Below, one piece after another: positions 16,101 to 42,265 of a stretch of DNA of 42,529 nucleotides. Every line of letters starts with the position of its first letter. The first letter of the stretch is position 1. The DNA is taken from IMG/VR virus record IMGVR_UViG_3300025668_000019, positions 1 to 42,529 of that record; one strand, written 5' to 3'. The notes under the pieces were generated by a model. It was not told the origin of the DNA, made no database searches, and was given only the letters and a program-made list of their open reading frames with translations. The DNA comes from a virus. A program made the position numbers and the translations under genes.

Positions 16101-16108
16101 TATTTATA
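16101..16108 (-). promoter_or_regulatory. T4-type late promoter, exact TATAAATA
   Basis: This is an exact match to the T4 late consensus on the minus strand. It overlaps the stop codon of the 6064-aa gene (16104-16106). By T4 spacing the transcript would start near 16095, about 14 bases before the ATG of the 408-aa gene. It lets the 408-aa and 1381-aa genes be transcribed without relying on read-through of the 18-kb gene. Confidence 0.8.
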
Positions 16109-28100: not shown

Positions 28101-31100
28101 AACAAGACTAACATCCAGGAAAGAATACAAAGTATTATTAATTTCTTTGATCCAATCGATGGTAATTACGCTCGTTCCGATCTGTGCCTTACCAAAAGAT
28201 AATCTAACGTCGGTAGCACTGCTTGTATCTGCAGTTTCTAGTACAAAATAAACAGAATCATCAAGAACAATAAGATCTATCAATTTTTCAGATTTGGAAG
28301 CAGTTGCAATCTTTCTTTTTGCTGAGAAATTGCCAGTAGAATCGACTGATGCAATGTAAGCATCATATGGATTCGACGAGTTAGTATTTGTATAACCACC
28401 GATAATATAACGTGTCTCAGAATATTTCCTGATGGCAGTTACTTTATCTGCACGAGTCGCACCAGAGATACCAGCAAATCCTCTTTGGAAGGAGAGAGTT
28501 GCACTCAGTCCATCAATTGATTGAACATATTTTGCAATAATTCCATCAGGATTATATGCAGTGAGAATTTGTGAGTTTGGTTTAGATTCTCCAACAACCC
28601 AAATATTGTCACCATCAACATCTAATTTAGTAAATTCAGTATAAGCTTCTCCACCTTGACTTTCAAGAGTTTTTTCCCACTCTTTAACACCAAGTTCAGA
28701 GAATTTAGATATGAAAGCAACTTCATTGCCAGAACTATCTAAAGTTTTTCCACAGAAGAATGATTCTTTTTGGTCATTGACAACTACATCATTGATTTTG
28801 ATATAGTTTTGATTAGCAATGGTAGCAACATAATAATCTGCTTTCTTAAAGACTTGAGGATGACTCAGAATAACTCTAGGGTTTTTAGTATATCCAGAAC
28901 CAGAATTAATAATATTAACAGTCTCAATAGCACCAACAGAATTTACAACTGCCTGTAAATCTCCAGATTCTCCATCACCATCAATAATAATAGTTGGAGG
29001 AATCTCAGCATCATATCCAGAACCAGTCTGAGTGATGGAAAGTTCTTCAATACCCTTCAATTGACGTACAACATACTGTTTGTTCGTATTGTCCATTACA
29101 GGAGTGTAATCAACAAAAACTGTATCTGCAGGTTGCAATTGATGGGGAGAATCTGTTGTAATTACACCAAAGTTTGAATCTGATACTGTTTCAAATCCAT
29201 ATGAAAGGAGACTCTCACCCTTAATTTTAGAGATACGAGCAGATACACCGATACCTTCAGTACCATCATTATCAAATGTCAGAATGTCATTTACTTGATA
29301 ACTCTTACCAGGATTTTCAACAATAAATCCAGTTACAGCAGCATCTTCAAACTTAGTGATAGTTTCAACTTCGATATCAACTTTAGAATCAAGTCTTACT
29401 GAAGGGAAATAATCAAATAGTTGTAAAGGAGATTCTTCAAACAGTTGATCGGGATCAGCAGTTTCTGCTGCATCAATGATACCGTCTCTATTCTCGTCTT
29501 CTACATCAAACAGGAGAATGTCTCCATCCTCAGTAGTTAGAGCGTTTGTAGAGGCATTTGGTGCCCTCTCAACGTCAATATCAACATTCTCATATGGATC
29601 TCTATAACGAACAACTCCAGTAGGAATATTTTGCTGAACAGCATCAGAATTGAGATTCCAAGGATCAACAACAGAGTTGAAATCTGTTCCCAAAACATAT
29701 GGGAATTGTGGATTACCATTTTCTGTGGTATCAATTGTTATGAAATAGCAATACCTACCTTCGGGGAAATCTGGAGTTTTGCAGAAACGACCGTTATATT
29801 GATCGAGGTCACCCAATCCAAAAACATACTGATAGTCTTCAATAAATCTTCCTACAGGTTCATCTAAAATAGAAGGTCCTGCAGTTCTAATTGGTGTTGG
29901 ATTAGTGATCGCATCTTCAATCAAGTTAGATTTCAATCTGTATGAAGTATCAAGTCTATTAACTGCAGAAGATTGATCTGTAGGATCTGTGTATCCATAA
30001 GGTCCGTAGATAGGATTACCATCAAACGCCCAACCAATAATAGGAGAGTGATCTAACTGATCTTCCTGTTCTAAGATTTGGTTATTAACATCTTCAAATA
30101 AGTTATCACCAAGAATATATCTCAGTCTTTGAGGATTAGAAAGGTGTGCATATTCACCACCGTACTGATTATTATATCCAGAGAATACAGCACCCTTTGC
30201 ACTATCAAATGAAGTGTTCTCTTGAAGATTATAAGTCCATTGGAATACATTAGAATTGAACGTAGCGCCCAATCCAACAGAATTCAAACTAATAATAGTT
30301 GTTCCTTGAACGTAGTTGATACCTCTATTGATAATATCAATACTAGTAACTCTTCCAGCATTTTCTCCATCAGTATCAATCGTTGCTTTAGCAACAGCAC
30401 CAAAACCATCACCTTGAATGACGACTTCGGGTGCAGTAGTGTATCCACTACCAGCAGAAATAATAGCAATAGAAATAATTCGACCATTATTGACAATTGC
30501 TTGAGCAACTGCTCCAGAACCAGAACTCAAAGAGATTGTAGGTTTGGATGTATATGATTCTCCACCACTAAGGATAGTTGTAGATTGAATTGGTCCGCGA
30601 ACAGAAGCAGTTGCAGATGCTCCAGAACCACCTCCACCAACAATGGTGATGCTTGGTTGAGACGTGTATCCACTACCACCAGAATTCATTAAAATTCTAG
30701 AAACGACACCCTTAGTAACAATTGCTGTTGCAGCTGCTCCAGAACCGCCTCCACCGACGATAGAGACCAAAGGGGATGTTGTGTATCCAGTACCACTTTG
30801 ATCCACTGTGATCGCTGTAATAGATCCATCAACGGTTACGCTTGCTGATGCTCCAGAACCGCCGCCACCTTCAATAGTAATGTTAGGAGGAGATGCTGCG
30901 TCATAGTCCTGACCAACATTTGTAATGTCGATAGATGTTACAGGTCCAAATGTTTTTGTTAAACTTGATTTATATGACCAAATAGACACACCATTCACCC
31001 ATACACCAATAGGTCCAGGATTAATGGCATTTTTAGTAGAGATTGTATTTGGTACTAACGGGAATCTATTTAATTTACGTTGGTTACCAGGAATAAGTGC

Positions 31101-34100
31101 AGATCCAGGGAAAGGTCCAATATTATAATTGGGAATACCAGTAGATGCAACATACACATACTCTTCATTAAAGAATGAGTTCTGAATATTAGTTGTATAA
31201 GGTCCAATAGAATTCAAAACTGCAGAATTTGTCGATTTTCCCTTATTCAAATCAACAGATACTAAGATATTGCCCTGAGGAACAACACTAGCAGGTTGTG
31301 GGAGTTGATATTGGAAAACAGTTTCACTGTCTCTGGAGGTGACGAAGAAAGAACCGTTATATAAAATTGGATTTGCACCATAAACAGTAACTTGATCGCC
31401 AACTAACAATCCATGTGGGTTGGAGCAAGTAATGGTTGCAAACCTGTTATCAATACCACCAAAAGTAACTTCAGTAACTTCGACTAACTTTTTGACATTA
31501 TACAACCAAGTTCTTAGTTCTGGTTTTGTTGAAGTACCACCAAGTTTAGAAACTGTTAATTTATCACCAGGTAGGTAATAAGATCCAGTATCAGTCAATA
31601 CCGTCTGCTGAGCATCAACGATACCAACAACATTTAAAACTACCTCTTGAGTAGTTCCCCTATTAATATAAACCGTAAAGTTAGAAGATACTCCTGTTGC
31701 AGAATCCCAATCCTCAACAATATTATTAACAGAGCGAGTACATTCGATAAACTGATTCAGTGATTTTTCTTTATATTGAACTAACTCCGAACCACCGATT
31801 AAAAATTCACCATTTCTTTCTGGCCATCCAATAGTAGAATCGACTGTGATAACAGTATCATCTACACCAAGAGGTTCTGCAAGTTTTGTTTTGTATGGAA
31901 CTGTAAAAGAACCTACAATTGTCTCTTCAGACAAGACTAGTTCATAGATTTCAACATCAGATGTTTTGATTGAAATGTAATTTTCTACCAGTGCTGATGC
32001 TGCTCTAATGCTAGGATCTGCAATATCTTCTTCTTGAGTTAAGAGACCGTCTTTGATATTTGTAGGATCACCACTTACTAATGTGGCACGAAGAATCGTA
32101 TCAATAGACCAAGTTGCCGCAGATGGTTTTACGATCTGATCTTTTGGATATGTGATTGATACTTGCTCTCCATACAACAGTTTGAACAAATAAGCAACAC
32201 TAAAAGATGTACCCTTACTAGAATAAAAATCTTTTACAGATTTAATTGCTGTACGGACATCAATTTTAGTAAAATCAAGTTCAGGAACGTCTGGTAGGAA
32301 CTGTTCTGTATATTTGTCGAGAAGACGTTTTACAAATAATGCATCTAGACATTTGACATTAGCATCAATGACAGCAGGCATTGCCATTGTATTATTTGAG
32401 AAAATGGCATTACCACTTTGAGTATATTCTACAATACCACTAGCAGCTCTCGCACAACCATTAAATGTTGCTTTAGTATATCCACTACCACTCCTATTAA
32501 CAACGAATCCAGTAATTTCTTCTAAACCAGATTCTACTGATGCTTCGGCTTGAGGAGGACTTTGAATTACGACTGTAGGTGGCGTTGCAGCACTATATCC
32601 TGTACCAAAATTAGAAACATTGATATCAGTAATTCTACCATTAAAGATTGATGCCGTAGCAGCAGCTCCACTGCCGCCATCCTCTCTATTATCTACAATA
32701 TAAACAGATGGAACATCTTCATATCCACTGCCACCACTAAGAAGTTCAATACCAATAACACGTCCATCACCATCAACTTGAGTCTGGAGGACTTGTGCTC
32801 CTGTTGGATCGATTATTGCAATTCTAGGAACGGAGGTATAACCTTGTCCAGGATTAAGAACATTTATTGAAGTAACTACTCCATTAGTGATAACTGCTTG
32901 GAGATTTGCTCTAATCGCATTATCACCAAGAGGTTCATCGACATAAATTGCTGGTGCCGTTGTATATCCTTGCCCACCATCAGTAATAGTAATACTACCA
33001 CTAATACTACCACTAACAATAGTTGGTACTCCTATTTTTGCTCCACCAGGTTGTAAAAAACTAACTCTTGGAGTAAATGTATATCCACTACCAGAACTAA
33101 TAATATCAATACTGGAGATCGATCCATCAACTACAGTTGCTTTCAATTCTGCATTCTTAGATCCTTCAAGAACTGAGTCTTGAATTACTACGGTAGGGGG
33201 ATTTGTATCACTATATCCTTTACCACCAGAGAGAAGGGTCGCATTCTTGATACCATTTACTAAGGCAGTAGCAGATGCAGAAGAACCGATACCATTAGAA
33301 TTAATAGTGACTTTTGGTGGATATTGGAATCTATATCCACTTCCATTATTGTTAATGGAAATTGAAGTTAATTGATTGTCATTGATTCTGGCATATCCCA
33401 AAGCACCAGATCCAAAAGATGGGATAGGTGCTTCAATGGAATATACAGATAAGAATCTTCCATTCAAAGGTGCTGTATTAAAAATGAAAATATCACCATC
33501 AATGAAAAAATCTACCTTAGGGGTTAAAAATTCATTATCATAAACTGCTACGACATATTCATCAACAATGGGTTCATATTTTTCACCATTCCTAGTAAGT
33601 TTAAATTCTGTCTTACCTTCACCAAAAGAGTTAGAAATATTATCAACACCGATAATGGTATCTTCAATAAAACCACTCAAAAATGTGATGGATGTACTTG
33701 CATTATCATCTGATGCAATTCTTGCTCTAGGTGCAACAGTAAATACAACATTTGTGCCATCAATAACATAATCAATGTTTGGAATTAAAACTTGTCCAAA
33801 GACAGTGACAATTAGATGCTGTGCAGAAGGCGGGGCAATAGGATTTGACTGGGAAGTCAAAGGAAACGAACGCTCTACTCCATCAAAGGAATTGATAATT
33901 TGAGCAAGACTCGTCCATTTGAGTTTTACTTGCTCAAATGAAATTCCAGGACTTAGAGCAATATTAGGAGCATCTGTCGTGCTCTCATAATAGATTACTT
34001 CATCACCAATTAAGATAGAACCATTAGTATCTAAGAACTGATCAACAGATTCTACAACAATAGTATTACTAGTTGTAGAAATTGCTTCTACGACTTTAGT

Positions 34101-34298
34101 GGCACCATTCAAGATACCAACATCTAACTTATCAATATCTAGATATTGTAAGAAATTATTGACCAAGTTTTGACCAAGACCCGTTTTTTCCTGGGATCTA
34201 TAGTAGTACTCGATGAACTTATTGAATAGTGGATATTCAGATCCAATAAAATCTGGAGTCTGACTTGCAATCGACTGAGAGACCTTGTTTATATTCAT
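16104..34298 (-). CDS. Giant modular baseplate/adhesin-like protein (6064 aa) in the gp7 position
   Basis: One uninterrupted frame follows gp6 by 5 bases, where T4 has gp7 (about 1030 aa). I see no clear gp7 similarity. Segments in order: a helical N-terminus (PLFNKFIEYYYRSQEK); GSGY beta modules at about 305-615, 1123-1340, 1750-1820, 3003-3230 and 5987-6030; a cyanophage-typical block at 652-743 (DFTKIDVRTAIKSVKDFY, KPSAATWSIDTILRATLVSG); a YHYH domain at 1380-1537 (GWAFDGNPIYGPYGY); an EF-hand loop at 1601-1612; a beta-propeller-like region at 1843-2193; LamG-like domains near 2197-2430 and 4023-4238; helical repeats at 4273-4983; a carbohydrate-binding-like jelly roll near 5063-5320 (GTNFFTNPEAFAVNW...GDGWYRAYIT); 'NGVLQ-PG' elements near 5783 and 5875. 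No signal peptide. Probable role: wedge-linked receptor-binding or sheath-like periphery. The exact function is unknown. Confidence 0.85.
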   Translation of the reverse strand: MNINKVSQSIASQTPDFIGSEYPLFNKFIEYYYRSQEKTGLGQNLVNNFLQYLDIDKLDVGILNGATKVVEAISTTSNTIVVESVDQFLDTNGSILIGDEVIYYESTTDAPNIALSPGISFEQVKLKWTSLAQIINSFDGVERSFPLTSQSNPIAPPSAQHLIVTVFGQVLIPNIDYVIDGTNVVFTVAPRARIASDDNASTSITFLSGFIEDTIIGVDNISNSFGEGKTEFKLTRNGEKYEPIVDEYVVAVYDNEFLTPKVDFFIDGDIFIFNTAPLNGRFLSVYSIEAPIPSFGSGALGYARINDNQLTSISINNNGSGYRFQYPPKVTINSNGIGSSASATALVNGIKNATLLSGGKGYSDTNPPTVVIQDSVLEGSKNAELKATVVDGSISSIDIISSGSGYTFTPRVSFLQPGGAKIGVPTIVSGSISGSITITDGGQGYTTAPAIYVDEPLGDNAIRANLQAVITNGVVTSINVLNPGQGYTSVPRIAIIDPTGAQVLQTQVDGDGRVIGIELLSGGSGYEDVPSVYIVDNREDGGSGAAATASIFNGRITDINVSNFGTGYSAATPPTVVIQSPPQAEASVESGLEEITGFVVNRSGSGYTKATFNGCARAASGIVEYTQSGNAIFSNNTMAMPAVIDANVKCLDALFVKRLLDKYTEQFLPDVPELDFTKIDVRTAIKSVKDFYSSKGTSFSVAYLFKLLYGEQVSITYPKDQIVKPSAATWSIDTILRATLVSGDPTNIKDGLLTQEEDIADPSIRAASALVENYISIKTSDVEIYELVLSEETIVGSFTVPYKTKLAEPLGVDDTVITVDSTIGWPERNGEFLIGGSELVQYKEKSLNQFIECTRSVNNIVEDWDSATGVSSNFTVYINRGTTQEVVLNVVGIVDAQQTVLTDTGSYYLPGDKLTVSKLGGTSTKPELRTWLYNVKKLVEVTEVTFGGIDNRFATITCSNPHGLLVGDQVTVYGANPILYNGSFFVTSRDSETVFQYQLPQPASVVPQGNILVSVDLNKGKSTNSAVLNSIGPYTTNIQNSFFNEEYVYVASTGIPNYNIGPFPGSALIPGNQRKLNRFPLVPNTISTKNAINPGPIGVWVNGVSIWSYKSSLTKTFGPVTSIDITNVGQDYDAASPPNITIEGGGGSGASASVTVDGSITAITVDQSGTGYTTSPLVSIVGGGGSGAAATAIVTKGVVSRILMNSGGSGYTSQPSITIVGGGGSGASATASVRGPIQSTTILSGGESYTSKPTISLSSGSGAVAQAIVNNGRIISIAIISAGSGYTTAPEVVIQGDGFGAVAKATIDTDGENAGRVTSIDIINRGINYVQGTTIISLNSVGLGATFNSNVFQWTYNLQENTSFDSAKGAVFSGYNNQYGGEYAHLSNPQRLRYILGDNLFEDVNNQILEQEDQLDHSPIIGWAFDGNPIYGPYGYTDPTDQSSAVNRLDTSYRLKSNLIEDAITNPTPIRTAGPSILDEPVGRFIEDYQYVFGLGDLDQYNGRFCKTPDFPEGRYCYFITIDTTENGNPQFPYVLGTDFNSVVDPWNLNSDAVQQNIPTGVVRYRDPYENVDIDVERAPNASTNALTTEDGDILLFDVEDENRDGIIDAAETADPDQLFEESPLQLFDYFPSVRLDSKVDIEVETITKFEDAAVTGFIVENPGKSYQVNDILTFDNDGTEGIGVSARISKIKGESLLSYGFETVSDSNFGVITTDSPHQLQPADTVFVDYTPVMDNTNKQYVVRQLKGIEELSITQTGSGYDAEIPPTIIIDGDGESGDLQAVVNSVGAIETVNIINSGSGYTKNPRVILSHPQVFKKADYYVATIANQNYIKINDVVVNDQKESFFCGKTLDSSGNEVAFISKFSELGVKEWEKTLESQGGEAYTEFTKLDVDGDNIWVVGESKPNSQILTAYNPDGIIAKYVQSIDGLSATLSFQRGFAGISGATRADKVTAIRKYSETRYIIGGYTNTNSSNPYDAYIASVDSTGNFSAKRKIATASKSEKLIDLIVLDDSVYFVLETADTSSATDVRLSFGKAQIGTSVITIDWIKEINNTLYSFLDVSLVSDEFDECYITSTLRLKSDNTTKDSFWVGKLDTDGDLIWNYRYIAPSGKNIQVANNTIIDIFGDLNVGYTSIDATTGYKTVDTVKIGYDGIMKKQTSNEFNINNIEGITVNSIAVDNSGDVFSFGQTSWNRNEFLYGFESGSILDTTTHYTLTNTTTSGSVTLENNVAKIYGYQTGQSTWTQGNLKVTGEQLGTKLDDNWTFEMMVYKDSSVTSVSATEQTLLSIGDATVATGGLWLYYDISGGNLELVVTNNTTTINSAGTALQSTATTMYADDTWQFIGLKKEGDTFTGYVNGIQAFTGTIADTALSNKDIHIGQIAGRDGTLGTYRSNEQGQFFVDNVRLRNRALTPTVPSDVTALPVAAAFGFSYSWTDTAWFSTNTNRYDYIDYIGWALKTDKNSDAVRLGDKGAQSNTGIGFARTNVPVVIGSTLTLTSTGLALGGVGLQTLDYDNVASTFLQDTETLTYASDTWSSRTSTVPSPGSKKLKVDAIVKDRYYIKVTNTIKIDNVQELVINQPFNFSIGAKLQLNNDAGSFINSGYILRVDDTNNKVYCAVNNNSWSDDLNTGNLVTSQFSEQSTYGISGPIPNDVNVISDYFFNEITNTTPGTFDIDLSTYDAPTEIGGTNNLDEFAKFTPFNTDSYSVKILEVSGSSTFIVGSVVSIETGDISFNSAYSTAQITNLTGVLKITLISTLDKILQCTAVNNTDEVYAITGNRHYFSVGENIFVTGNPTREVSGTLYDEYDGSFTVNSVVSNKEFTYKLDAAAVSDPATSASAVSIFAKSPVLKMYYGHQYLFDLSHSSMVGANLSFSKDNLFKLEYSFNSIERIGTPGLTGEGQPTPTVKLKVGRGTVTNISYYFDPSRTGSDSPIDTRSYLDIVDSPYVGTFVVSSTSGGTITTGDTIFKFPLSNEPEGVATVSQAQYSTSSTKAVGPISDIRIVSSGGFYSRLPVVTGIQSSRKIERVDINAPGTEYAVGVYTGVPIGGDGEGGLVSITVADGSDEEGGVIPGQIQEVSVTSPGKGYTTAVIDVEAIDGILGAGLTGSGAELVVVIPPFGTGASVFTKGDKVGKIKKLKNNNFGYDYPHDYTLRPEITFPINAQLTSTSILDSITVTNPGSGYSQAPAVVITGGGGTNAIAEASIRNGRIDQILVKDPGSGYSSEPTVSLKSSFNYVINIDLGLLQFAFPHGIVNGSLVTLDVTDTGDGIEFPLASGAIGRLNSTTTYYAITGAANSLENDQLKLAITAANAELGDSLTFANAGTGRQSLLTESFGASATANVVTSTFLEGELVYQGDAFETATATGYVSTNNGWQVGPRVLKIVNYVGDFTANSKITGVISKSSGIISDLKIAKGVLDIGSITKTTGQFIDDVGKPSEIIQKIQDSYYYQDFSYAVKSSVSIDDWKDILIKNVHPASFKVFGELNLVEKGFVPNKGIDFQLTKSVELTRQSVVPNIQSFALVEPIYSEFNNTEVLFRQKRLTSSENILTSVVQRIDDISSLFDGERIAFPLTVDGINVVANSNQLMIILNGVAQTPNTSFEIQGESIVFSEPPQPPASVKYVNISVDPISIVAFTFINTSGIFPNVGNTLIGISSTARLTVTNVIGQVIQGFVTEGTFIINELCTVGATGFSGNLQQNDSISNIGLFAFNETVTNLDGDTARVEQINLQRGQETPLARLRYTIGAATSTFEVIDATSATDSPIADGTLVSGSDYQIGSEIFTITNITQGSESTSITVTRGVNGTNAVSQQEDIPIYSTTITITNDLTLSKTAGTYQSTPGLYDIQLNDIIIGASSGVVARVTSTAVYVDPTTNESIGQVNISDGSSFFGLLFNRIASQTYPNIVLDDISKSQVSIVDFDDKDTAYNLKFPSNELINNYVIPYDNASGDIQQDEFIRNYKVEYGNNSGEFTPNEGGVVRKLTLKDRIGTGFFAAGQVIKSTDTKAEVVGYNQAKSTLFLGKVGRCQSTGADYHTATFNNSAQLDTAQKQFGTASLLLASGTTDYLSIPTSTEFGFGTNALTIECWIRPANVTGAKAILDFRTAGTEVSPYLYLDGSNIKYLVNGSVTITGTASLVADTWYHVAISRSGSTTKMFVNGTQDGGDYSDASDYGSTKPLRIGATITSSDGFSGHIDEVRVSTNNRYTQTFTAPTGIFQGDSTTKLLLHLDGADAQTYTEDWSGVESFTKGEEFNNDAIFATSKVTGAPAGFAGKTHRYYDAANLIEVNKDFVAKETVYLLTQQYPSLVIPGGNVNCEDDIRDILSALIEDLRNGSNNHMWDASALYVDRTSVPITISHVDTEITETLWAYEKVNDMLQYIINNVLWTVSGSHGLTQVTDTTLIDSSTSSLTTFTPASGTTYDPATGLLVLEIGSHSLTTSSRVSLARESIVFTCADDGNDREISYPDAGNTTAYDQVLAVTSPTATTITVNVGASPAGQQYAHTFVSAAANAVTELDYTTGDCADVYGTVGNLIDILTDTLTNADLVSPVDHLASVTKVQPAIEFIGASVDEYLETGFNVDYHDGTSDTIYTNQIGLDTQYRFRDAAGLIRANRGPIVDKAAADMIGRYPELAQDMPRNANGGSTDGTLRCKTDLGLLLDALANDLEEGGNRNTVTGAKFYLGNNDVLQHIRLQVFQSVYAHERLAFYAKQAITGDLTEVNTNSIIVGDWGITNDAGNCANVQTAIDTLVETVNDIIAPTNQDFQIAADRLYFNRTFIAEEITGLTTAEFTYDLNGVPFSALTFPGSNGQTTCERDLKLIILSIISDLQTGGSYSTITAIELYLNANLTINHIENELLATLYSIEQLKIFCERAARNLLYDQFSAVTGDQYAGAYSTTATFRDSESPTDIDEVVYRIRDLVDISVAILAPGKDEARSAAKNLLYNKNYYKEEISTLALAQFGAGSWTYNDFLDNLVDDIVHDLITTDTTSTISAYTITLSANSGNFIVGETVTSSGGGTATVLEWDAEDEILYVGAFTGTAWVAADTLTAPSTATGTIATSGVSSVYDWYDTPTNVKILSRAQNITSNVTGQVSGTNFFTNPEAFAVNWQANSNGGVDSLLIADNSIAAPDGTVTAEKFFAQNSNGGVHDTFRDYSLTAFETFDSGTVKFDTSNETFDTGAVGIDASQTYTFSIFFKSAGSSSLRYKITLDPGLASEQNIFFDLNLNAGTTGSLFIPQGGMTGGAFGAVPYGDGWYRAYITTTFGFGFSTLRGSVTVNSATGTTSWTGDGTTGAYFWGAKLNKGALDPYTAVSGEIFYADTEYNIKNYAIDLLELLMGNSLDNTLVSPSTNAGFYSFYDSTKASDYTKSTIQMFIRYGLNTIRQQLTTDSYYTNLIQVNGISVPSKTFGTRDVPVGIDGGLNNSDYIYGLLSGNYAELEKISVNEGKVVQVYKRFRIDGDITDGPFTMNEVVAKQGAPSVTGVVYGFYEDENFKYLDVRVTAGPWAVTDTLVGATNSTTAQISAIEDRLHIIDLKGSFEEDVPFKGYTSGETAQPTVFNKVQAATLSNTGGTLTVDTETLIGTFEETSVVYPESSRQYLDVSQYAGLDVQVGQRIASEGYIRLGVSVVSGLNVFTVGNRLYKVTNGNQDSSVYGIVSEVDLDNNYIYISQVVGTFNNGDLVGDYGLSANFPVGYASISTKVITPGAAAALVQDIRLVGLYKRLYLSDIRGIFNSKDSVKSIDGYRAVVVAKEELKARVKRAFRGFDGTQTNFKLTTGNGTQYLPDPAGHLLIFINGVLQPPGATNAFTAFSDQIQFTESPDLGASFTGFYIGKLRQLDDISFEFDSLRQSFNLKRNDVFYSLTLTDGVQSSVIRPENNIIVSLNGVLQEPGVGFEIVGSRIIFSEIPRFGSTFVAFSYVGSEADVDAAEVVPPVEPGDFIDIQGETSDREVALIESSNSLITFDYLGSVFGQDARASANITAGYIKNVQITAGGSGYTSRPTVRLDSISGFDANIRALVGVAGVELSTTGSGYQDPIVDVETSVPDDWTAPDLSQYGEEIINPEIL
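19345..21482 (-). repeat. Degenerate helical repeats with a conserved Cys-x-x-Asp inside the 6064-aa protein
   Basis: Three full copies and one shortened copy of a roughly 110-130-residue helical unit lie at about residues 4273-4395, 4599-4715, 4759-4890 and 4935-4983. Each opens with an 'AA-L---N' helix (YYDAANLIEVNKDF, FRDAAGLIRANRG, QIAADRLYFNRTF, RSAAKNLLYNKNY). The first three continue with 'C-x-x-D-(I/L)-x-x-(I/L)L-x-x-(L/I)-x-x-DL-x-x-G' (CEDDIRDILSALIEDLRNG, CKTDLGLLLDALANDLEEG, CERDLKLIILSIISDLQTG), then a Tyr-containing strand and an 'I-H-(I/V)' or 'I-L' helix. They are divergent, so duplication is old. I do not recognise the fold. Confidence 0.7.
30510..30862 (-). repeat. Nucleotide-level tandem repeats encoding GSGY beta modules
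   Basis: The plus-strand 12-mer TGCTCCAGAACC recurs at 30510, 30618, 30735 and 30849, with spacings of 108, 117 and 114 bases (36, 39 and 38 codons). On the coding strand it encodes the Gly-Ser-Gly-Ala element of each module, followed by strands such as GGSGYTSQPSITI and SGTGYTTSPLVSI. Unlike other GSGY clusters, the DNA itself is still alike here, so these copies duplicated or converted recently. Confidence 0.85.
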
Positions 34299-34303
34299 CT
34301 AAT

Positions 34304-36340
34304 TTAGAAGCAACTTGTGTTACTAATTGTACCTTGGTTTGTGATGTCTGGAATTTCAATAGTTGTTGGGACTTGATTGAAATCCGTTGGCGTCAAACTA
34401 TTTAGAGGGATTGTAGGAGGAGCAACTACTCCAATAGGAACAACTGTAATAACAGGTGTAACTATGTTAATAACTGTTCCTGGAGTAGTAGCAGGAATGG
34501 TTGAATTGTTAGCAGGGATAAAGGAAACAGGAATTTCAATATTGACTGGAAGTGTCGTGGTATCTATTACAGTACCAATTCCAGTAGTAACATCTTCAGG
34601 ATTTATCTGAACTGCTGAATCTGGAGGAACATTAGTTCCAGATCCAATAACATTGATAGGTCCGAAACAAATTTGACCTGTATCATAATTTACAGTTCCT
34701 GCAGTATCATTAGTATAAATTTTTCTCGTCCCTGTATTATAGAACGTCCTCAGATTGCCAAACCCGTCATCTTCAAACTGTTGATCAACTCCAGGTCTAT
34801 TGGCGGTTCTAAAGGTTCCTGAGAGGAGTACAGGTTCTTTTTTGCAACTGCCATCACCACCATCTTGACTAGGAGCACTGTTATAAAGATCAGATCCTGT
34901 AGAAATACAATAAGTATTAGTCTGATTTGTAGTTGGTTTAATATATTTTAAAATTGTTGTCTGTAGAGAGATATCACTAACACATTTGTTTGACAGTGTT
35001 ACTGCTTTCTCAAAATCAGATGCCCTAAACGTAGAATTGAAATTATTGATATTAGTTTGTGTCGCCCAATCAACAATTGCAGAATTGATATCTGTTTCAA
35101 TTTCATTAGGATTGGATCCACATCCAGTATCATATGTTACAAACAACTTCAAGTTGATGTACATGTCATCTGGATCTGTAATAACAGGATCAATAGATGC
35201 CATTGAATATTGTCTTAGATTCGCTTGAATCTCATTTTTAGTAGCATCATTCAGTACTGTTCCTGTTTTCGTTTTGATAGCAATATAAACTTTTCCGTAA
35301 ATAGGAGGATTTAATGCATCACCACCATATGCAACAACAGAAGATGCATTAGCGTAAATATTTCTTGTGATTACAGCATAATCTTGCGCTGTAACTGCTC
35401 TATACTGAGCGGAGTAATATCGTGGAGCGTTATACTTAATAGATTCGATAGATTCGGCAGGAGCTCCTTGCTGAGACTTATCCTTTACCGTAAGTTTCGC
35501 TAAACCTGGAGAGTATGTCTGTCCATTACTATCAGTAAGTCTGCCGATAAACGTGAATTTGGAGACTTCATTTGCTTCATTACCAGAAGTTACAATATAC
35601 TCAAACTGTACAACTTCACCATCTTTCAATGCACGCCCTACACTATCATCACCAAATTTAATTTCATATCGCATATCTTCCCCTTCAGAAAGAAAATATG
35701 CTCTAGTAGTAGGAGTAAGGTTAGTAACAACCTCAACCTTATTATAAAGATCGAATGTGGTAGAAGATTCGTTGGGTTTTACCTTTACGGTAAGTGTTGA
35801 AATATCAGCATCTTCTGTAGGAATTATATAATTTTGAGTTGCAAACGTATTTACAATATATTCAAATTTGATAATGGCACCTTCATACACTAACAAACTA
35901 TCAAATACTGCTAATCCAGTAGAAGCATTGACATTTGCAGTGATATTCTGTAAAGTATTCCATACATAACCACCACCAGTCGCTACAGAACCTCTTCCAA
36001 GGGTGACAGTGGATGGATATACTCCATTTGATTGTGTTGTTTGAATAGTTAGATATAAACAAGCCTTAGACGTGCTAACCGACCTTGGAGTGTAATTTAA
36101 CAGTTTGGCAATATTGACAACATTATCCCTTACCGTAGCAGACGGCAAAAATACTTCATTCAATGCCATGTTAGCATTAAACGAAGTATAATAAGTATTA
36201 TATGCTAGGATGTCAATTAAGTAGGATAAAGACGATCCATCAAAATCGTAATCTGTAAATTCTTGTCGAGTTCTCAGATATGATTTGATTGAAGCTTTTA
36301 TATCCTCAAAATCTAATGCTGTTAAATTATTCGGTTGCAT
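34304..36340 (-). CDS. 6: Baseplate wedge protein gp6 (baseplate J-like)
   Basis: At 678 aa it is close to T4 gp6 (about 660 aa). The N-terminus (FEDIKASIKSYLRTRQEF, then DGSSLSYLIDILAYNTYY and NMALNEVFLPSATVRDNV) is characteristic: gp6 starts with a helical region ending in the 'A-NE-FL--A--R-NV---A-LL-Y-PR' pattern shared with baseplate J proteins. The motif RYYSAQYRAVTAQDYAVI in the middle is another J-family mark. gp6 forms the ring that joins the six wedges around the hub and interacts with gp25 and gp53. The start codon overlaps the gp25 stop by one base (TAATG), so the two are translationally coupled. The C-terminal 100 residues are Pro/Thr/Ile-rich and poorly conserved to my eye. Confidence 0.93.
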   Translation of the reverse strand: MQPNNLTALDFEDIKASIKSYLRTRQEFTDYDFDGSSLSYLIDILAYNTYYTSFNANMALNEVFLPSATVRDNVVNIAKLLNYTPRSVSTSKACLYLTIQTTQSNGVYPSTVTLGRGSVATGGGYVWNTLQNITANVNASTGLAVFDSLLVYEGAIIKFEYIVNTFATQNYIIPTEDADISTLTVKVKPNESSTTFDLYNKVEVVTNLTPTTRAYFLSEGEDMRYEIKFGDDSVGRALKDGEVVQFEYIVTSGNEANEVSKFTFIGRLTDSNGQTYSPGLAKLTVKDKSQQGAPAESIESIKYNAPRYYSAQYRAVTAQDYAVITRNIYANASSVVAYGGDALNPPIYGKVYIAIKTKTGTVLNDATKNEIQANLRQYSMASIDPVITDPDDMYINLKLFVTYDTGCGSNPNEIETDINSAIVDWATQTNINNFNSTFRASDFEKAVTLSNKCVSDISLQTTILKYIKPTTNQTNTYCISTGSDLYNSAPSQDGGDGSCKKEPVLLSGTFRTANRPGVDQQFEDDGFGNLRTFYNTGTRKIYTNDTAGTVNYDTGQICFGPINVIGSGTNVPPDSAVQINPEDVTTGIGTVIDTTTLPVNIEIPVSFIPANNSTIPATTPGTVINIVTPVITVVPIGVVAPPTIPLNSLTPTDFNQVPTTIEIPDITNQGTISNTSCF

Positions 36341-36759
36341 TATTCAGGTCTCTGTAAAACAAATTGGATTGTTTCAACAATAGGTAACCCAACAACTTTG
36401 TATTCAATAGTAACATTTAATTTGTTACCCTCATAAACTGGAGTCACAATAACATTTGTAAGTTGTACTCTAGGTTCGTACTGGTTAATGGTATTTATGA
36501 TCTCTTCCTTGAGAGAATCTGCAGTAAATGGATCTAGAGGTTCAAATAGTAAGTCATTTACTCTAGATCCAATTAAAGGTTGGAATGGTTTTTCGCCAGG
36601 TGTTGTCAAAATTAGGTTTTTTACTGATTGTTTGATAGAATTATCGTTTTTTACGACAGATGCATCATCAGTAAAAGGATTTTTAGCAAACGAAATTGCC
36701 AAATCTACGAATCTTCGTGATTTTTTAAAATCCTTACCTGCAATTTTTCTTAACGCCAT
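36340..36759 (-). CDS. 25: Baseplate wedge protein gp25
   Basis: This 139-aa protein has the gp25/GPW family pattern: VDLAISFAKNPFT near residue 20, VKNLILTTPGEKPFQP near 46-61, GSRVNDLLFEPLDPFTA near 64-80, and the diagnostic EPR in NQYEPRVQLTNVIV near 92-105. T4 gp25 is about 132 aa, sits at the inner wedge and nucleates sheath assembly together with gp6 and gp53. The first 10 bases overlap the end of the 52-aa gene, and the stop overlaps the gp6 start, so the three genes form a tight cluster under the late promoter at 36960-36967. Confidence 0.95.
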   Translation of the reverse strand: MALRKIAGKDFKKSRRFVDLAISFAKNPFTDDASVVKNDNSIKQSVKNLILTTPGEKPFQPLIGSRVNDLLFEPLDPFTADSLKEEIINTINQYEPRVQLTNVIVTPVYEGNKLNVTIEYKVVGLPIVETIQFVLQRPE

Positions 36760-36908
36760 TGTTTTTTGCTATCGGAACCCATTTTTTCCATATTTTCCCG
36801 ATATTTGTCCAAATAGTAGTCAGATTTGGTATCTGTGATTAGTACAGAAGTGCCAAAATCCCTCTTCATTAACTCTGGTACGTTATCAGGAACGTGATTT
36901 AAAGCCAT
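36750..36908 (-). CDS. Small protein (52 aa) upstream of gp25, unknown function
   Basis: Reading the minus strand from the ATG at 36908 gives 52 codons (MALNHVPDNVPELMKRDFG, then TSVLITDTKSDYYLDKYREN) and a TAA at 36750-36752. It overlaps the gp25 start by 10 bases. It fills an otherwise empty gap between the late promoter and gp25, and its last codons run into gp25 in the way coupled phage genes do. The ribosome site is weak (GTGGGG close to the ATG). The C-terminal half is a charged helix. Its place suggests a baseplate assembly factor, possibly a reduced relative of gp53, but I see no sequence support for that. Confidence 0.75.
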   Translation of the reverse strand: MALNHVPDNVPELMKRDFGTSVLITDTKSDYYLDKYRENMEKMGSDSKKQWR

Positions 36909-36928
36909 AACCCCACTAATAAATTAAA

Positions 36929-36952
36929 ATAGAACTTTTAGAGGGGTTCTAT
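36929..36952 (-). promoter_or_regulatory. 5' leader hairpin at the gp25-gp6 transcript start
   Basis: On the minus strand a perfect 7-bp stem (ATAGAAC with GTTCTAT) encloses a 10-base loop. T4 spacing from the late promoter at 36960-36967 places the transcript start near 36954, so the mRNA would begin with this hairpin within two bases of its 5' end. This could protect the transcript from decay. It is followed by a U-rich stretch, so it may instead act as a weak terminator for the PAAR-48-aa transcript coming from upstream. Confidence 0.55.
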
Positions 36953-36959
36953 CCCTTAT

Positions 36960-36967
36960 TATTTATC
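36960..36967 (-). promoter_or_regulatory. T4-type late promoter, GATAAATA
   Basis: The minus-strand sequence GATAAATA keeps seven of the eight bases of the T4 late consensus. It overlaps the stop codon of the 48-aa gene (36963-36965) and lies 52 bases before the start of the 52-aa gene. It would drive the 52-aa gene, gp25, gp6 and the 6064-aa gene. Confidence 0.65.
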
Positions 36968-37109
36968 GTCCTTGGCCACGATAACGTTTTTTGGCATTAT
37001 TTCTACTAGTAGAACCATACTTTGTGTGCTGACCAGATCCCTGACGTGATTTTTTGGGTTGGGATTCGATCATATTACCGCCGCTAAGCGATTTTTTCAT
37101 TTTTGCCAT
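36963..37109 (-). CDS. Small basic protein (48 aa), unknown function
   Basis: I chose the start at 37109 rather than an upstream ATG at 37163. A clean GGAGG lies at 37116-37120, 6 bases before the 37109 ATG, and the longer version would run 52 bases into the PAAR gene. The product (MAKMKKSLSGGNMIESQ, ending RNNAKKRYRGQGR) is Lys/Arg/Gly/Ser-rich with no hydrophobic core, so it is probably disordered and may bind nucleic acid or an acidic partner. It starts 2 bases after the PAAR stop codon. Small basic proteins of this look occur beside PAAR genes in cyanophages as I remember them; no function is known to me. Confidence 0.75.
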   Translation of the reverse strand: MAKMKKSLSGGNMIESQPKKSRQGSGQHTKYGSTSRNNAKKRYRGQGR

Positions 37110-37111
37110 AA

Positions 37112-37663
37112 TTAACCTCCAATAAAAACATTCTTGCTTGATCCTGTTATCACAGACAAGCAAGGAAAAGCAGTGGTTCCATCTCCGAGTGGATCACCGA
37201 AACGTGTTGCACGTCTTCCTCCAATCCAAACCGTCTTACTAGTTGCAAATGCCTTCCTAGCATGTCCAACAGAAGGTTCCCTGCCACCAACTACTCCCTG
37301 AGTACAATGCCATGCAGGGGTATTTAATGTAGTAATACAGTCATTACGAACAGATGTCGTAGAAAACTGAGTAGGTGTTGGATGAGTAGTCAGAAGATCC
37401 TGATCTACTATGGGTACTTGAAGATTAATGAACACTCTAGCAGCTGCTGAAAGAGCAACACCAAAGGGTAGTTGTGATAATGGTGGCCAGATTGCAACTG
37501 CATTAACTGCAGGAAGAGGAACAGCATTGACTGTTAGAGTAAGTGGTTGATGAGGACAATCGGGTAGAGTTCCTCCTCCAAGACCAGGGTGATGAGATGC
37601 TCCAACACCAGTTCCATGACCACTGCAAGTGCCCATGAATATTCCCGCCATAGTTCCAGGCAT
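37112..37663 (-). CDS. PAAR-repeat spike-tip protein
   Basis: The 183-aa product ends with a PAAR-type sequence: SKTVWIGGRRATRFGDPLG near residues 142-160, a Cys in AFPCLSVITG and the end SSKNVFIGG. PAAR proteins form a small metal-bound cone that caps the central spike of contractile tails; the T4 counterpart is gp5.4 (about 97 aa). The first 40 residues are Gly/His-rich (CSGHGTGVGASHHPGLGGG) and carry extra His and Cys residues that could take part in metal binding. A further Cys/His pair lies in TPAWHCTQG. It follows the 1003-aa gene by 3 bases and is coupled to the 48-aa gene. It is longer than a bare PAAR domain because of a hydrophobic middle (NAVPLPAVNAVAIWPPL), which may contact the spike. 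Confidence 0.88.
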   Translation of the reverse strand: MPGTMAGIFMGTCSGHGTGVGASHHPGLGGGTLPDCPHQPLTLTVNAVPLPAVNAVAIWPPLSQLPFGVALSAAARVFINLQVPIVDQDLLTTHPTPTQFSTTSVRNDCITTLNTPAWHCTQGVVGGREPSVGHARKAFATSKTVWIGGRRATRFGDPLGDGTTAFPCLSVITGSSKNVFIGG

Positions 37664-37666
37664 AAT

Positions 37667-40600
37667 TCAATCGTCGAATGGGTTACCGTATGCTTCAGTT
37701 GCCAGTATAACAGTTTGTGCATCCCTAGTCAAGTCATGGAACATTGTGATTGTTCCAGTTGCTGTCCATTCTTGTGCTCCAGGTCCAAGTAATGGTGACA
37801 TCAAATACGAATATGTGGATGTAGAGTTAATGGCAGCACCATTTTCATCTACTTCCCCTGTAGGATCTTGTGATGTCGATCCAGGAGTAAGAGCTGGAGG
37901 AGCACATGTGATATGAGCACATCCAATATCTTGAGGGATGCAATTTAAAGAAACTTCAATTGAAGTTTGCTTCGCAGGATCTGGACGATACTGTCGCATA
38001 ACATATTTAGTAAATGCAGACGATGTTGGTAGATTCGTAAAACTTCCATTACACGTTTCGATAAAAACTTCATCTTTCACAGAATACTCAGGAATTACTT
38101 TTTGTGTGATAGTATCAATATCACTATTAATCCTTTTTTTAGTAGATTTCTTATTGTCTCTAATTACATTCTTACGCTCACTATCAATATCAGTATCTTT
38201 AAGATAAGAAAGATCATAATCAACTATCATAATCTCTTTCAATGGTTCTGTAGCATCCGAACTATATTTTTGTTGAGATAACTGTCTAATACGTTCCCTA
38301 TCCTTATCATATTTGGGTTCCAATTTTGGTTCTGAATACTTAATATCAGTTTCCTTTGGAATCTGACTATATGAATCATCTATAGCTTGTAAATCCTCTG
38401 CTCTTACAGTAACTTGACCTTCAACGTCAGATTCACTCGTAGGAAGACTTTCTAACACCTCTTGAAATTCAGGAACTAAATCACCACGATATCCCTCATT
38501 AGGATGTGTCAAACTAACAGTTTCAAAAATATTCTTTACAAAAACATTAGGAGGATCATCTGCATTATACCCAGAACCACTTCTCTTAATTACTACAGAT
38601 GACAAAGAACCCCCTGTAAAAGTACCTTCAATTACAGCATCTCTCTCGCCACTACTAGCATCCTCTTCACTAGGAGTAGATGCTGCTTCCTGGATGACAG
38701 CAGGATTGCCATCAGGATCTTGCCACTGATTATCTACCCATGAATAAACAACGCCGTTAAATGTATATATAAATGACCCATCAAGTGCTTCACCAAAAGT
38801 ATCGGGGAAGTTAATCTCCACCTCTAGACCATCAGAAAATGTAGGAGTTGCACTTGATGGAGATCCATTAATTTCAAGTATTGGTTTTACTTTTAAATCA
38901 ATAAATCCACTACCAGGATTTGCTGCGTCCAATACTCTAATTGTTGCATTTGTTGCAGTTCCTGAAGGTTTCGTCGCGCCAGGAATTGTAAGTAAATCCC
39001 CTGATTGATATCCAGATCCAGGATTTGAAATAATAACCTGACTAATGCTACCATCATCACCAGTTCTGATGTTTGCAGTAACACCAGATCCATTACCTCC
39101 ACTTAATGATACATTATCTGCATCACTATAAGAGTCTTCTAAATTATCCTCAATTGAATTTATATCAACTTTGAGGACTTCTCCGTTAAAAGATAACCCA
39201 CTTACGCCTCCATTAGTTAAAGTTACAAATGCACTCGGTTGAATAATAGTATTAAACGCATTTTCCGTATTTTTATTTAAATCAGCAGTACTGAACTGCA
39301 ATGATTTATTTAAAAATTCATATAATCCAACTAAACATGCGCGATCTTTAATACCATATCCCGCAACTACAGTGACAACGTGGTTCCTGTCGGATGTATA
39401 TTGCGTATCTTTAGTAAAATCAGATCCATTACCATCAACGTATATTACATGATACTGAAAGTTATCAACATCAGTATGAAATACGCGGGTAACTGTATGT
39501 CCATTGAGTGTATCATTAACTCGTAAGATATCAAATCCCGTTTGACCTGTTACATTTGTAATTGGACCAACACTCGTAACTTTTATATTTAATGTAAGAA
39601 CACTATCTGTACCATCATCATGTCTATGAGAATATGATAAGGTAAAGACATCATTTACTGCATACCCAGTTCCAGGATTTATTAACTCATCTATAATCCA
39701 TCGAGTACCTGAAAAGACTGTGGTTGCCCCAGTATCATCAAAAATAGGTCTGATCTTTGCCTTGACAACAAAATTAGACTTTGTTACCCCAGAAGTAAAA
39801 TCAAAGATTTCAAAATCATCTAATGATTCATCTCCTGTTTTCCATGGATTTTGTGATGACTCGTATATAATACCTGTTGAATTCTTCTTGTCCCATGCTT
39901 CAGCATAAGTAACGCCGTCATAACTTACCTCAAAATCTGTAACACCATTAGGTAGAATTGTTGATAATTCATCATATGATACTACAATCTTTTTTGAGTC
40001 AGTATCAACAGCAAATAATGTTGGATGAGGACAATCAACGTCGCCCGTTAAATCTTCTTCTGCTGTATATGTTAGTAATGTCTTTTCTGGTGTTGATGTA
40101 AATGCTGTACAAGGACGACAAATCTGACGACTACCACCACTTGACGTACTAGTAGATTGTCCCGTTCCTGGATCAGGAGGACCAGGTGTTGTCGTACTTC
40201 GAGTCTCAGTCTCAATATAAAAACATGGAATTCCTATAATTCCACTATTAACTGAGGTATCATACAAATATGAAAACCAAGTATCTGAAAAACAATAGTC
40301 GAATGATAATTCATTCGGAAAATAATCTAGTATAGTCTGTGGAGTTTCGGATATACCATCAGGACGTGTAAATACACTCCTACAACTACTTGGTTTTGAT
40401 ATCTTTCCACAATTTGCAGACGATGATCCAGTTCCTGATCCTGATATTCCTGCCGTTCCAGTGGAAACATCAGCATCGGTGAATGGATACATCACATTGT
40501 TATCTTCTCGACCAGGTATATTATACTTCCCTGCTCGAATAGCATTTACAGGATACTCTAGAAAACTAAATGTAACTCCTGATCCAGCTGGTGCTGTGTA

Positions 40601-40678
40601 ATTATAACAGTGGTCTGGGTTTGCTCCTAAACCACTACAAATCCCAAAGTCATACCCACCGCGAGTCTTACACCCCAT
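37667..40678 (-). CDS. Modular virion structural protein (1003 aa), upstream of PAAR
   Basis: I do not recognise the N-terminus (MGCKTRGGYDFGICSG). The first 240 residues hold many cysteines, several in pairs close in sequence (CRPCTAF, and CNG and CIPQDIGCAHITC near the C-terminus), which is unusual for a cytoplasmically made phage protein. The middle has GSGY modules (SNPGSGYQSGDLLTIPG near 552; KRSGSGYNADDPPNVF near 693) as in the other large proteins here. Residues about 790-880 are highly charged and helical (KYDKDRERIRQLSQQK, NKKSTKKRINSDIDT). The ribosome site GGGAG lies 9 bases before the ATG. It overlaps the 77-aa gene by 11 bases and sits directly upstream of PAAR, which suggests a spike- or hub-proximal virion protein. 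Confidence 0.75.
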   Translation of the reverse strand: MGCKTRGGYDFGICSGLGANPDHCYNYTAPAGSGVTFSFLEYPVNAIRAGKYNIPGREDNNVMYPFTDADVSTGTAGISGSGTGSSSANCGKISKPSSCRSVFTRPDGISETPQTILDYFPNELSFDYCFSDTWFSYLYDTSVNSGIIGIPCFYIETETRSTTTPGPPDPGTGQSTSTSSGGSRQICRPCTAFTSTPEKTLLTYTAEEDLTGDVDCPHPTLFAVDTDSKKIVVSYDELSTILPNGVTDFEVSYDGVTYAEAWDKKNSTGIIYESSQNPWKTGDESLDDFEIFDFTSGVTKSNFVVKAKIRPIFDDTGATTVFSGTRWIIDELINPGTGYAVNDVFTLSYSHRHDDGTDSVLTLNIKVTSVGPITNVTGQTGFDILRVNDTLNGHTVTRVFHTDVDNFQYHVIYVDGNGSDFTKDTQYTSDRNHVVTVVAGYGIKDRACLVGLYEFLNKSLQFSTADLNKNTENAFNTIIQPSAFVTLTNGGVSGLSFNGEVLKVDINSIEDNLEDSYSDADNVSLSGGNGSGVTANIRTGDDGSISQVIISNPGSGYQSGDLLTIPGATKPSGTATNATIRVLDAANPGSGFIDLKVKPILEINGSPSSATPTFSDGLEVEINFPDTFGEALDGSFIYTFNGVVYSWVDNQWQDPDGNPAVIQEAASTPSEEDASSGERDAVIEGTFTGGSLSSVVIKRSGSGYNADDPPNVFVKNIFETVSLTHPNEGYRGDLVPEFQEVLESLPTSESDVEGQVTVRAEDLQAIDDSYSQIPKETDIKYSEPKLEPKYDKDRERIRQLSQQKYSSDATEPLKEIMIVDYDLSYLKDTDIDSERKNVIRDNKKSTKKRINSDIDTITQKVIPEYSVKDEVFIETCNGSFTNLPTSSAFTKYVMRQYRPDPAKQTSIEVSLNCIPQDIGCAHITCAPPALTPGSTSQDPTGEVDENGAAINSTSTYSYLMSPLLGPGAQEWTATGTITMFHDLTRDAQTVILATEAYGNPFDD

Positions 40679-41521: not shown

Positions 41522-41550
41522 AGTATAATCGAAGAACCTCAGAATGTCAA
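41522..41550 (-). promoter_or_regulatory. Sigma70-type promoter, TTGACA-17-TATACT
   Basis: On the minus strand a perfect -35 TTGACA (41545-41550) and a -10 TATACT (41522-41527) are separated by exactly 17 bases. The -35 overlaps the stop codon of the 71-aa gene. The transcript would start near 41515 and carry a leader of about 100 bases before the next open frame, then the 72-aa, AbrB-like, 77-aa and possibly structural genes. The stretch 41412-41521 holds no other gene I can support; it contains a short AACCT/AGGTT hairpin and a GGGCCC palindrome. Confidence 0.8.
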
Positions 41551-41762
41551 GGAGTAAGGTACATTGACTTCTCTGTAGATTCCTCTACTATTGTCATAAT
41601 CCATCCGATGTGTTTGAGATAGTCAAAGGGAGACATTCTCTCAGTATTTGGGTATCTCTCTCCCCTACCTTCTCTTACACCGTCGAGGAATACTTCTAGG
41701 TCATAGACTGATGCGAATGACCCTACAATCTCCTGAGAGTCATTGTGAATTAAGTAGTGCAT
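41547..41762 (-). CDS. Small protein (71 aa), unknown function
   Basis: The sequence (MHYLIHNDSQEIVGSFASVYD, then LEVFLDGVREGRGERYPN) looks like a small alpha/beta protein with an initial beta hairpin and a helix, and a second half near FDYLKHIGWIMTIVEES. A consensus sigma70-type promoter lies upstream (41817-41845), giving a leader of about 47 bases. No strong ribosome site is visible (CTAAG before the ATG). I do not recognise the family. Its downstream edge overlaps the next promoter. Confidence 0.7.
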   Translation of the reverse strand: MHYLIHNDSQEIVGSFASVYDLEVFLDGVREGRGERYPNTERMSPFDYLKHIGWIMTIVEESTEKSMYLTP

Positions 41763-41816: not shown

Positions 41817-41845
41817 ATTGTACCATCTATTTGATAGTTTGTCAA
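41817..41845 (-). promoter_or_regulatory. Sigma70-type promoter, TTGACA-17-TACAAT
   Basis: On the minus strand a perfect -35 TTGACA (41840-41845) and a -10 TACAAT (41817-41822) are separated by 17 bases. The transcript would start near 41809, about 47 bases before the 71-aa gene. The -35 lies at the end of one arm of the inverted repeat 41840-41924. The surrounding stretch 41763-42004 has no gene I can support on either strand. Confidence 0.8.
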
Positions 41846-41924
41846 GTCCCTCTGAGTGACACTGTGAGACGAATGATTAGCAATGGTGATGATAAGATTC
41901 TCCGAGTATTCAGAGGACTTGACA
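41840..41924. repeat. 15-bp inverted repeat whose arms end in TTGACA
   Basis: Left arm TGTCAAGTCCCTCTGA (41840-41855) and right arm TCAGAGGACTTGACA (41910-41924) are inverted copies with one extra C in the left arm; the spacer is 54 bases. The left arm holds the -35 of the promoter above. The right arm puts TTGACA on the plus strand, pointing right, but without a good -10. A direct repeat TGAGTGAC (41853-41860 and 41931-41938) lies across it. It may be an operator or a remnant of a duplicated promoter. Confidence 0.6.
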
Positions 41925-42004
41925 GATCGTTGAGTGACGTGCTAAGAGTACAACAGCAGAGGACATTAAAGGTAGATAAAGAACACTAATAGATTTATTA
42001 ATAG

Positions 42005-42036
42005 TTTTCCACAATTTCCGCATTATCTGTGGAAAA
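42005..42036. other. Inverted pair of cyanobacterial-type DnaA boxes / hairpin
   Basis: TTTTCCACA on the plus strand (42005-42013) and again on the minus strand (42028-42036) form a perfect 9-bp inverted repeat around a 14-base spacer. TTTTCCACA is, from memory, the DnaA box consensus of cyanobacterial oriC. The structure lies 6 bases after the stop of the 70-aa gene, so it may also work as an RNA hairpin that ends that transcript, although no U-tract follows. Confidence 0.45.
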
Positions 42037-42042
42037 GTAATA

Positions 42043-42255
42043 TTAACTGTCAGAGGGGTTTAGATATACGTCTTTCCAGTAATGTCGATATACGCATAGA
42101 TTAACCTGATTAGTATTACGTTTAGCATTAACTTGTTCCTGCGGTAGTTTGTCCCACTCTCTGATAGTAATTGTGATGTATTGATCCCCTATAAAATTAA
42201 CTCTACCAGAGTAATGTTTATATGATACATGTTGCCCTTGAGAGAAGTCTTTCAT
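42043..42255 (-). CDS. Small conserved cyanophage protein (70 aa), possible SH3-like barrel
   Basis: The pattern (GQHVSYKHYSGRVNFIG, then DQYITITIREWDKLP, then VNLCVYRHYWKDVYL) resembles a family of small cyanophage proteins I remember with the same 'G--V-Y----G-V-FI---YITI-I' strands and a final 'C-VYR--W--V' strand. This suggests a small all-beta SH3-like barrel, perhaps RNA- or protein-binding. No function is known to me. TTTTCCACAGAT occurs both over its start (42254-42265) and just after its stop (42025-42036). No clear Shine-Dalgarno precedes the ATG. Confidence 0.75.
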   Translation of the reverse strand: MKDFSQGQHVSYKHYSGRVNFIGDQYITITIREWDKLPQEQVNAKRNTNQVNLCVYRHYWKDVYLNPSDS

Positions 42256-42256
42256 C

Positions 42257-42265
42257 TGTGGAAAA
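42257..42265 (-). other. DnaA-box-like TTTTCCACA
   Basis: A third TTTTCCACA on the minus strand, one base before the 70-aa ATG and in the gap between two genes. The neighbouring CTTTAGTAAAG (42265-42275 region) is a perfect palindrome around one base. With the pair at 42005-42036 it makes three boxes in 261 bases. Confidence 0.4.

Follow-up and report, generated by a model that had tools for sequence, protein, structure and literature searches.

T4-type phages are generally regarded as starting replication by their own means. Whether a T4-like cyanophage might instead call on the initiator of its host is the question raised by a 42,529-nt stretch of viral DNA (the window), which belongs to a Synechococcus phage ACG-2014a-like Kyanovirus (99% match; family Kyanoviridae) and carries three copies of the 9-mer TTTTCCACA within 261 bp. 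A sequence-only reading had described these copies as cyanobacterial-type DnaA boxes and had offered three functions without choosing among them: a host-DnaA-assisted origin, a decoy that titrates DnaA, or a DnaA-controlled promoter. The composite layout of the locus favors the origin, and both gene control and a decoy effect could coexist with it. Prior knowledge of where T4-like cyanophages begin replication is limited to the single theta origin predicted for Syn9, as reported in PMC2984593. In the open-access papers searched, there is no earlier mention of cyanophage DnaA boxes.

Table 1. Features of the candidate origin region and its surroundings (positions in the window)
Feature	Position	Strand	Remarks
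DnaA box, first arm of convergent pair	42028..42036	-	exact TTTTCCACA; invariant in the 16-phage alignment A1
DnaA box, second arm of convergent pair	42005..42013	+	exact TTTTCCACA; invariant in most of A1
Possible degenerate box ATTTCCGCA between the arms	42014..42022	+	from sequence and alignment
Outlying DnaA box TTTTCCACA	42257..42265	-	exact match; abuts start codon of ORF 42043-42255
AT-rich tract between pair and motif	41960..42004	.	76% AT over 45 bp
Conserved motif CGTGCTAAGAGTACAA (minus-strand sense TTGTACTCTTAGCACG)	41938..41953	+	
-10-like TAAGAG	41943..41948	+	TG at 41940-41941
-35-like TTGACA	41919..41924	+	18 nt before TAAGAG; points at AT-rich tract and boxes
Sense sigma-70-like promoter TTGACA-N17-TACAAT before ORF 41547-41762	41817..41845	-	11/12; conserved in A1
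Small gene upstream, phrog_522, unknown function	42043..42255	-	
Small early-type gene downstream, phrog_718, unknown function	41547..41762	-	
Late baseplate block: wedge protein (phrog_719), PAAR protein, gp25-like, gp6-like	34304..40678	-	

All three copies are exact matches, and the rarity and AT-rich neighborhood claimed for them were both borne out (Table 1). The window has four copies of TTTTCCACA compared with a mean of 0.69 per 42.5 kb in shuffles of the window, and in KJ019138, a 171-kb relative, seven copies are seen where a first-order Markov model expects 3.3. Under the same model about 4e-5 triples within 261 bp are expected in that genome, and only the window's three sites cluster among its seven copies. 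The three-box cluster is not a product of chance. The fourth copy in the window is isolated (28746-28754) and falls within a giant ORF at 16104-34298 on the minus strand; with 6064 codons, this ORF is the window's longest and lies in the structural gene block. The boxes had also been placed outside coding frames. This stands for annotated genes, all three being outside them, although a 37-aa ORF (41910-42023, minus strand) overlaps the 42005 box. We rejected this ORF as a gene, probably a spurious one, because it is broken or has no start in the relatives of alignment A1. A small annotated ORF over the element in S-SM1 (L016:2017-2130, T4-GC 1414) has a frame that is not conserved, and is probably not a gene either. 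The outlying box reads TTTTCCACAG-ATG at the start of ORF 42043-42255.

The sequence-only reading would have been weakened had the boxes not been kept in relatives; they are kept. We aligned this region in 16 relatives (alignment A1) and searched 25 genomes whole, 16 picked by similarity to the region and nine irrespective of boxes. The unit TTTTCCACAgataATGCGGAAattGTGGAAAAC occurs at the same place in the 16 aligned relatives, and the pair at 42005-42036, with a gap of 14 bp between its arms, is near-invariant across many genera. In Syn19 and S-SM1 the second arm has moved by 8 bp, and S-SZBM1 has ATTTCCACA at the position equivalent to the possible degenerate box between the arms. An extra box near the pair is frequent in relatives, at variable places and in either orientation. 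In 21 of the 25 genomes the exact boxes are clustered in one place only (2-8 boxes per phage genome), and among the nine box-independent genomes five have such a single-region cluster (P-SSM7, S-ShM2, ACG-2014d, S-PM2 and Syn9). The element of S-PM2 has other neighboring genes and lies beside a tRNA cluster, the boxes and the motif described below having moved together. The whole-genome search found no exact cluster in the remaining four genomes (P-SSM2, P-SSM4, P-RSM4 and metaG-MbCM1), so not every one of these phages requires the boxes; nor is there a TTWTCCACA cluster in T4 or in the SAR11 Kyanovirus HTVC008M. P-SSM4 (L185:11054) and MbCM1 (L194:6641) keep a TTAGCACG-type motif and the AT-rich tract, with the exact boxes missing, which may have been lost or altered along with the host.

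The protein that reads these sites can be sought through the 9-mer itself, which is the published cyanobacterial DnaA box, studied by gel shifts with domain IV of Cyanothece DnaA (PMC4674748). Across 28 full-length Cyanobiaceae dnaN loci, every one of the 25 exact copies sits within 450 bp upstream of dnaN (20 of the loci contain them), with zero copies elsewhere in the loci (~3.7 kb each). This identifies the 9-mer as the DnaA box of the host, and its assignment as cyanobacterial in the sequence-only reading survived the two checks run from that reading, on conservation in relatives and on a covarying RNA stem. Host oriCs mostly have one or two perfect boxes together with degenerate copies over ~200 bp, and the dnaN boxes of the laboratory host WH7803 are degenerate only, with no exact TTTTCCACA. 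Upstream of dnaN in WH7803 (L363/L369), a tandem TTTTCCACG TTTTCCCCA is followed by the DnaA-trio-like TTTAGTAGTT. TAGTAG-like letters can be found by eye beside the pair in some phages; the host layout would place them on the other side, and we do not claim a DnaA-trio. A DnaA encoded by the phage was ruled out in 14 genomes, none of which has a DnaA_C DNA-binding domain, while the domain was found in both hosts tested. We also rejected the idea that the phage copied the pair from host oriC: none of 201 host-family genomes contains the exact convergent pair, which is therefore not a host oriC fragment. Some cyanobacteria replicate their own DNA without needing DnaA (PMC7198777).

The spacing of the boxes also fits DnaA. 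A scan of viral contigs covered convergent pairs separated by 6-24 bp, with relatives collapsed approximately. Convergent boxes are 14-16 bp apart overall, and the gaps of TTTTCCACA pairs have a sharp peak at 14-15 bp (22 of 42 independent clusters among the matches listed). For TTATCCACA, the other common DnaA box, gaps of 13-15 bp were found in 29 of 65 independent clusters among the matches listed. These TTATCCACA pairs occur in many unrelated viral contigs (L491-L610 among the matches listed), a spread which suggests that pairs of host DnaA boxes are a widespread phage feature. In a control scan with the reversed 9-mer, a single family with gaps of 10 bp dominated; with relatives removed there was no 14-15 peak among the 19 clusters listed, a number that makes the scan a weak control. 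Same-strand spacing is a property for which the scan did not select. Among the matches listed, neighbors on the same strand within 60 bp are 11-12 bp apart from start to start in 21 of 52 independent instances, and distances of 21-23 bp form a further group. The 11-12 bp period leaves 2-3 bp between boxes, which is the gap that E. coli DnaA prefers under its measured double-box rule (PMC11317965). No exact same-strand pair occurs in the window. In ACG-2014d four boxes on one strand repeat every 11 bp, two with a single mismatch, and there is no palindrome. The box geometry is DnaA-like.

The boxes are one part of a conserved composite of ~120 bp (41919-42036), which further includes the AT-rich tract and a promoter-like TTGACA-N17/18-TAAGA. 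The tract, in the top 2.7% of the genome for AT content, is a candidate unwinding element. The motif TTGTAnTCTTAGCACG adjoins the pair in genome after genome, and in 29 of 48 distinct elements among the matches listed 51-52 bp separate the motif from the pair. In the same 48 listed elements, TTGACA with at most one mismatch is present in 40, compared with 5% expected at random positions; its spacing to TAAGA is 17 nt, rarely 18, and TG precedes TAAGA in 40. The -10-like hexamer TAAGA[C/G] is atypical, having no final T of a normal -10, and we therefore call the motif promoter-like, with an unusual -10. It is directed across the AT-rich tract at the boxes, antisense to all flanking genes. The element is located upstream of the PAAR, gp25 and gp6 genes, with the wedge gene also in the late block that follows. 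As an origin mark, GC skew is confounded: it shifts near the element, also at third codon positions, and the late-gene block begins there as well.

Candidate initiator sites and a tract of 76% AT, both features of origins at the sequence level, are thus found together, and we lean toward the element being a host-DnaA-assisted, transcript-primed phage replication origin, a reading with somewhat better than an even chance of being right. The boxes are best explained as putative host DnaA sites making up the initiator-binding half of this ~120-bp origin, and the outlying box at 42257 probably helps it. In the proposed mechanism, host DnaA would be borrowed by a phage that encodes none and would bind the pair early in infection. 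RNA polymerase starting from the antisense promoter-like motif would then cross the AT-rich tract toward the DnaA-bound boxes, and the opened DNA, or the RNA held as an R-loop, could serve as the entry point and primer for the phage replisome, as at T4 origins. If so, T4-type phages can depend on the host initiator DnaA, as the element suggests. Convergent DnaA-box pairs of this kind, of TTTTCCACA or TTATCCACA, are widespread in viral contigs. With a ~120-bp element conserved across many genera, the question of where replication starts becomes directly testable.

The closest known layout is that of T4 oriE, which consists of repeats and an early-type promoter (PMC3016281), and which is annotated immediately upstream of 5.4 (PAAR), 6 and 7, with a primer RNA in antisense orientation to gene 5. 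Both have a cluster of short repeats, the antisense promoter of oriE may have a counterpart here in the conserved promoter-like motif with its atypical -10, and both lie beside the PAAR-gp6-gp7 baseplate block, except that the S-PM2 element is beside a tRNA cluster. In contrast to the 12-nt direct iterons of T4, the repeats here are 9-nt DnaA boxes, and no repEA or repEB is annotated near the element. It resembles oriE in layout and place and is not a member, given the different repeats and the failure to find repEA/repEB. In T4 at least five origins are active and TTWTCCACA forms no cluster, whereas here there is one cluster per genome. The R-loop origins oriF and oriG of T4 span ~100 bp, with a promoter followed by an AT-rich unwinding element (PMC3016281). 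This order of promoter or promoter-like site and then AT-rich DNA is shared, but the T4 promoters are MotA-dependent middle promoters with no DnaA boxes described, while here DnaA boxes follow the AT-rich DNA; the review of T4 origins does not mention DnaA (PMC3016281). The cyanobacterial oriC beside dnaN shares the clustered 9-mer TTTTCCACA (PMC4674748) and differs in its mostly degenerate boxes over ~200 bp and in having no exact convergent pair among the 201 host-family genomes. At lambda pO/pR, host DnaA protects box-like sites downstream of the promoter and affects origin activation by transcription (PMC3985674). This too is a phage origin region with DnaA box-like sites near a promoter, but in lambda the initiator O, with its iterons, is the phage's own and the DnaA sites are only consensus-like, in contrast to the perfect boxes here and no known phage initiator. 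A more specific version of the origin reading, a single DnaA-dependent, transcript-primed origin at the oriE position with host DnaA boxes replacing the iterons, is one we hold tentatively, as a real possibility on the lesser side of even. Were it true, phage replication would be tied to the level of host DnaA, and hence to light and the cell cycle, and host oriC would be starved of DnaA.

A gene switch is the first alternative, and we consider it rather unlikely. Here host DnaA would repress or activate the antisense promoter-like site, the sense promoter at 41845-41817 or both, linking early phage expression to the host cell cycle with no replication start at this locus. DnaA is a known transcription factor (PMC11317965), two promoter-like sites are present within ~190 bp of the pair, and extra boxes are often found at the start codons of small genes (42257 here, and in KBS-M-1A and S-RIM50). 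However, the antisense site faces away from every flanking gene and so has no obvious gene to serve. The neighboring genes vary between phages, as in S-PM2, while boxes and motif stay together, and for 9 of 48 elements among the matches listed no sense promoter was found within 260 bp.

An improbable alternative is titration, in which boxes on the multiplying phage genome would compete DnaA away from the weaker host oriC boxes and halt initiation in the host, in the manner of datA. The datA locus and other DnaA titration sites are known as host chromosomal sites. The likeness lies in grouped strong DnaA boxes away from oriC, and the phage boxes are indeed perfect next to host oriCs with mostly one or two perfect copies plus degenerate ones, and none perfect in WH7803. 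A decoy, however, needs neither motif nor fixed geometry, and scattered copies would do, whereas the phage genomes have only 2-8 boxes in one place, with a promoter-like motif and AT-rich DNA added at near-fixed distance. Titration could instead be a side effect of the origin.

It is decidedly improbable that the 9-mer is read by a phage-encoded DNA-binding protein other than DnaA and serves as an operator or in packaging or recombination. The absence of the exact convergent pair from the 201 host-family genomes, and the motif TTAGCACG kept in P-SSM4 and MbCM1 without exact boxes, would agree with such a protein, but the 9-mer and the host oriC box have the same sequence, the same-strand spacing obeys the DnaA rule, and viral contigs with TTATCCACA have the same convergent spacing among the matches listed. 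A hairpin of the inverted pair in RNA or DNA, acting as an attenuator, a processing site or a cruciform, is disfavored and very improbable: the window sequence folds into a 10-bp stem (-8.7 kcal/mol, z -2.6), but flank pairing is not above that of independent columns (0.56 vs 0.61 outside, 0.68 vs 0.71 inside), a terminator-like tail was looked for at the locus and none was found, and an RNA element is further opposed by the lack of a credible Rfam match, the lack of arm covariation in A1 and the same composite in ACG-2014d with four direct boxes and no stem. The pair is therefore not retained as a covarying RNA stem, the other outcome that would have told against the boxes. Together, the spacing peaks, the direct boxes of ACG-2014d and the flank pairing without excess point to DnaA on double-stranded DNA rather than to an RNA stem.

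Other viral contigs carry larger arrangements of these boxes. The densest regular arrays among the matches listed are in two contigs of one group (L082:374-704 and L039:581-890), with 7-8 exact boxes at spacings of 11, 21 and 22 bp and one convergent pair. A second group (L026:6609, L032:4186, L090:5428 and L140:9091) has 4-5 boxes with a gap of 15, and some of its contigs carry T4-type gp25/gp6 baseplate genes. In L026 and L090 a promoter-like TTGACA-N18-TATAAT or TATACT is followed by GCTAAGATNACAA, and L090 and L108 also have a flanking GCGAG...CTCGC repeat.
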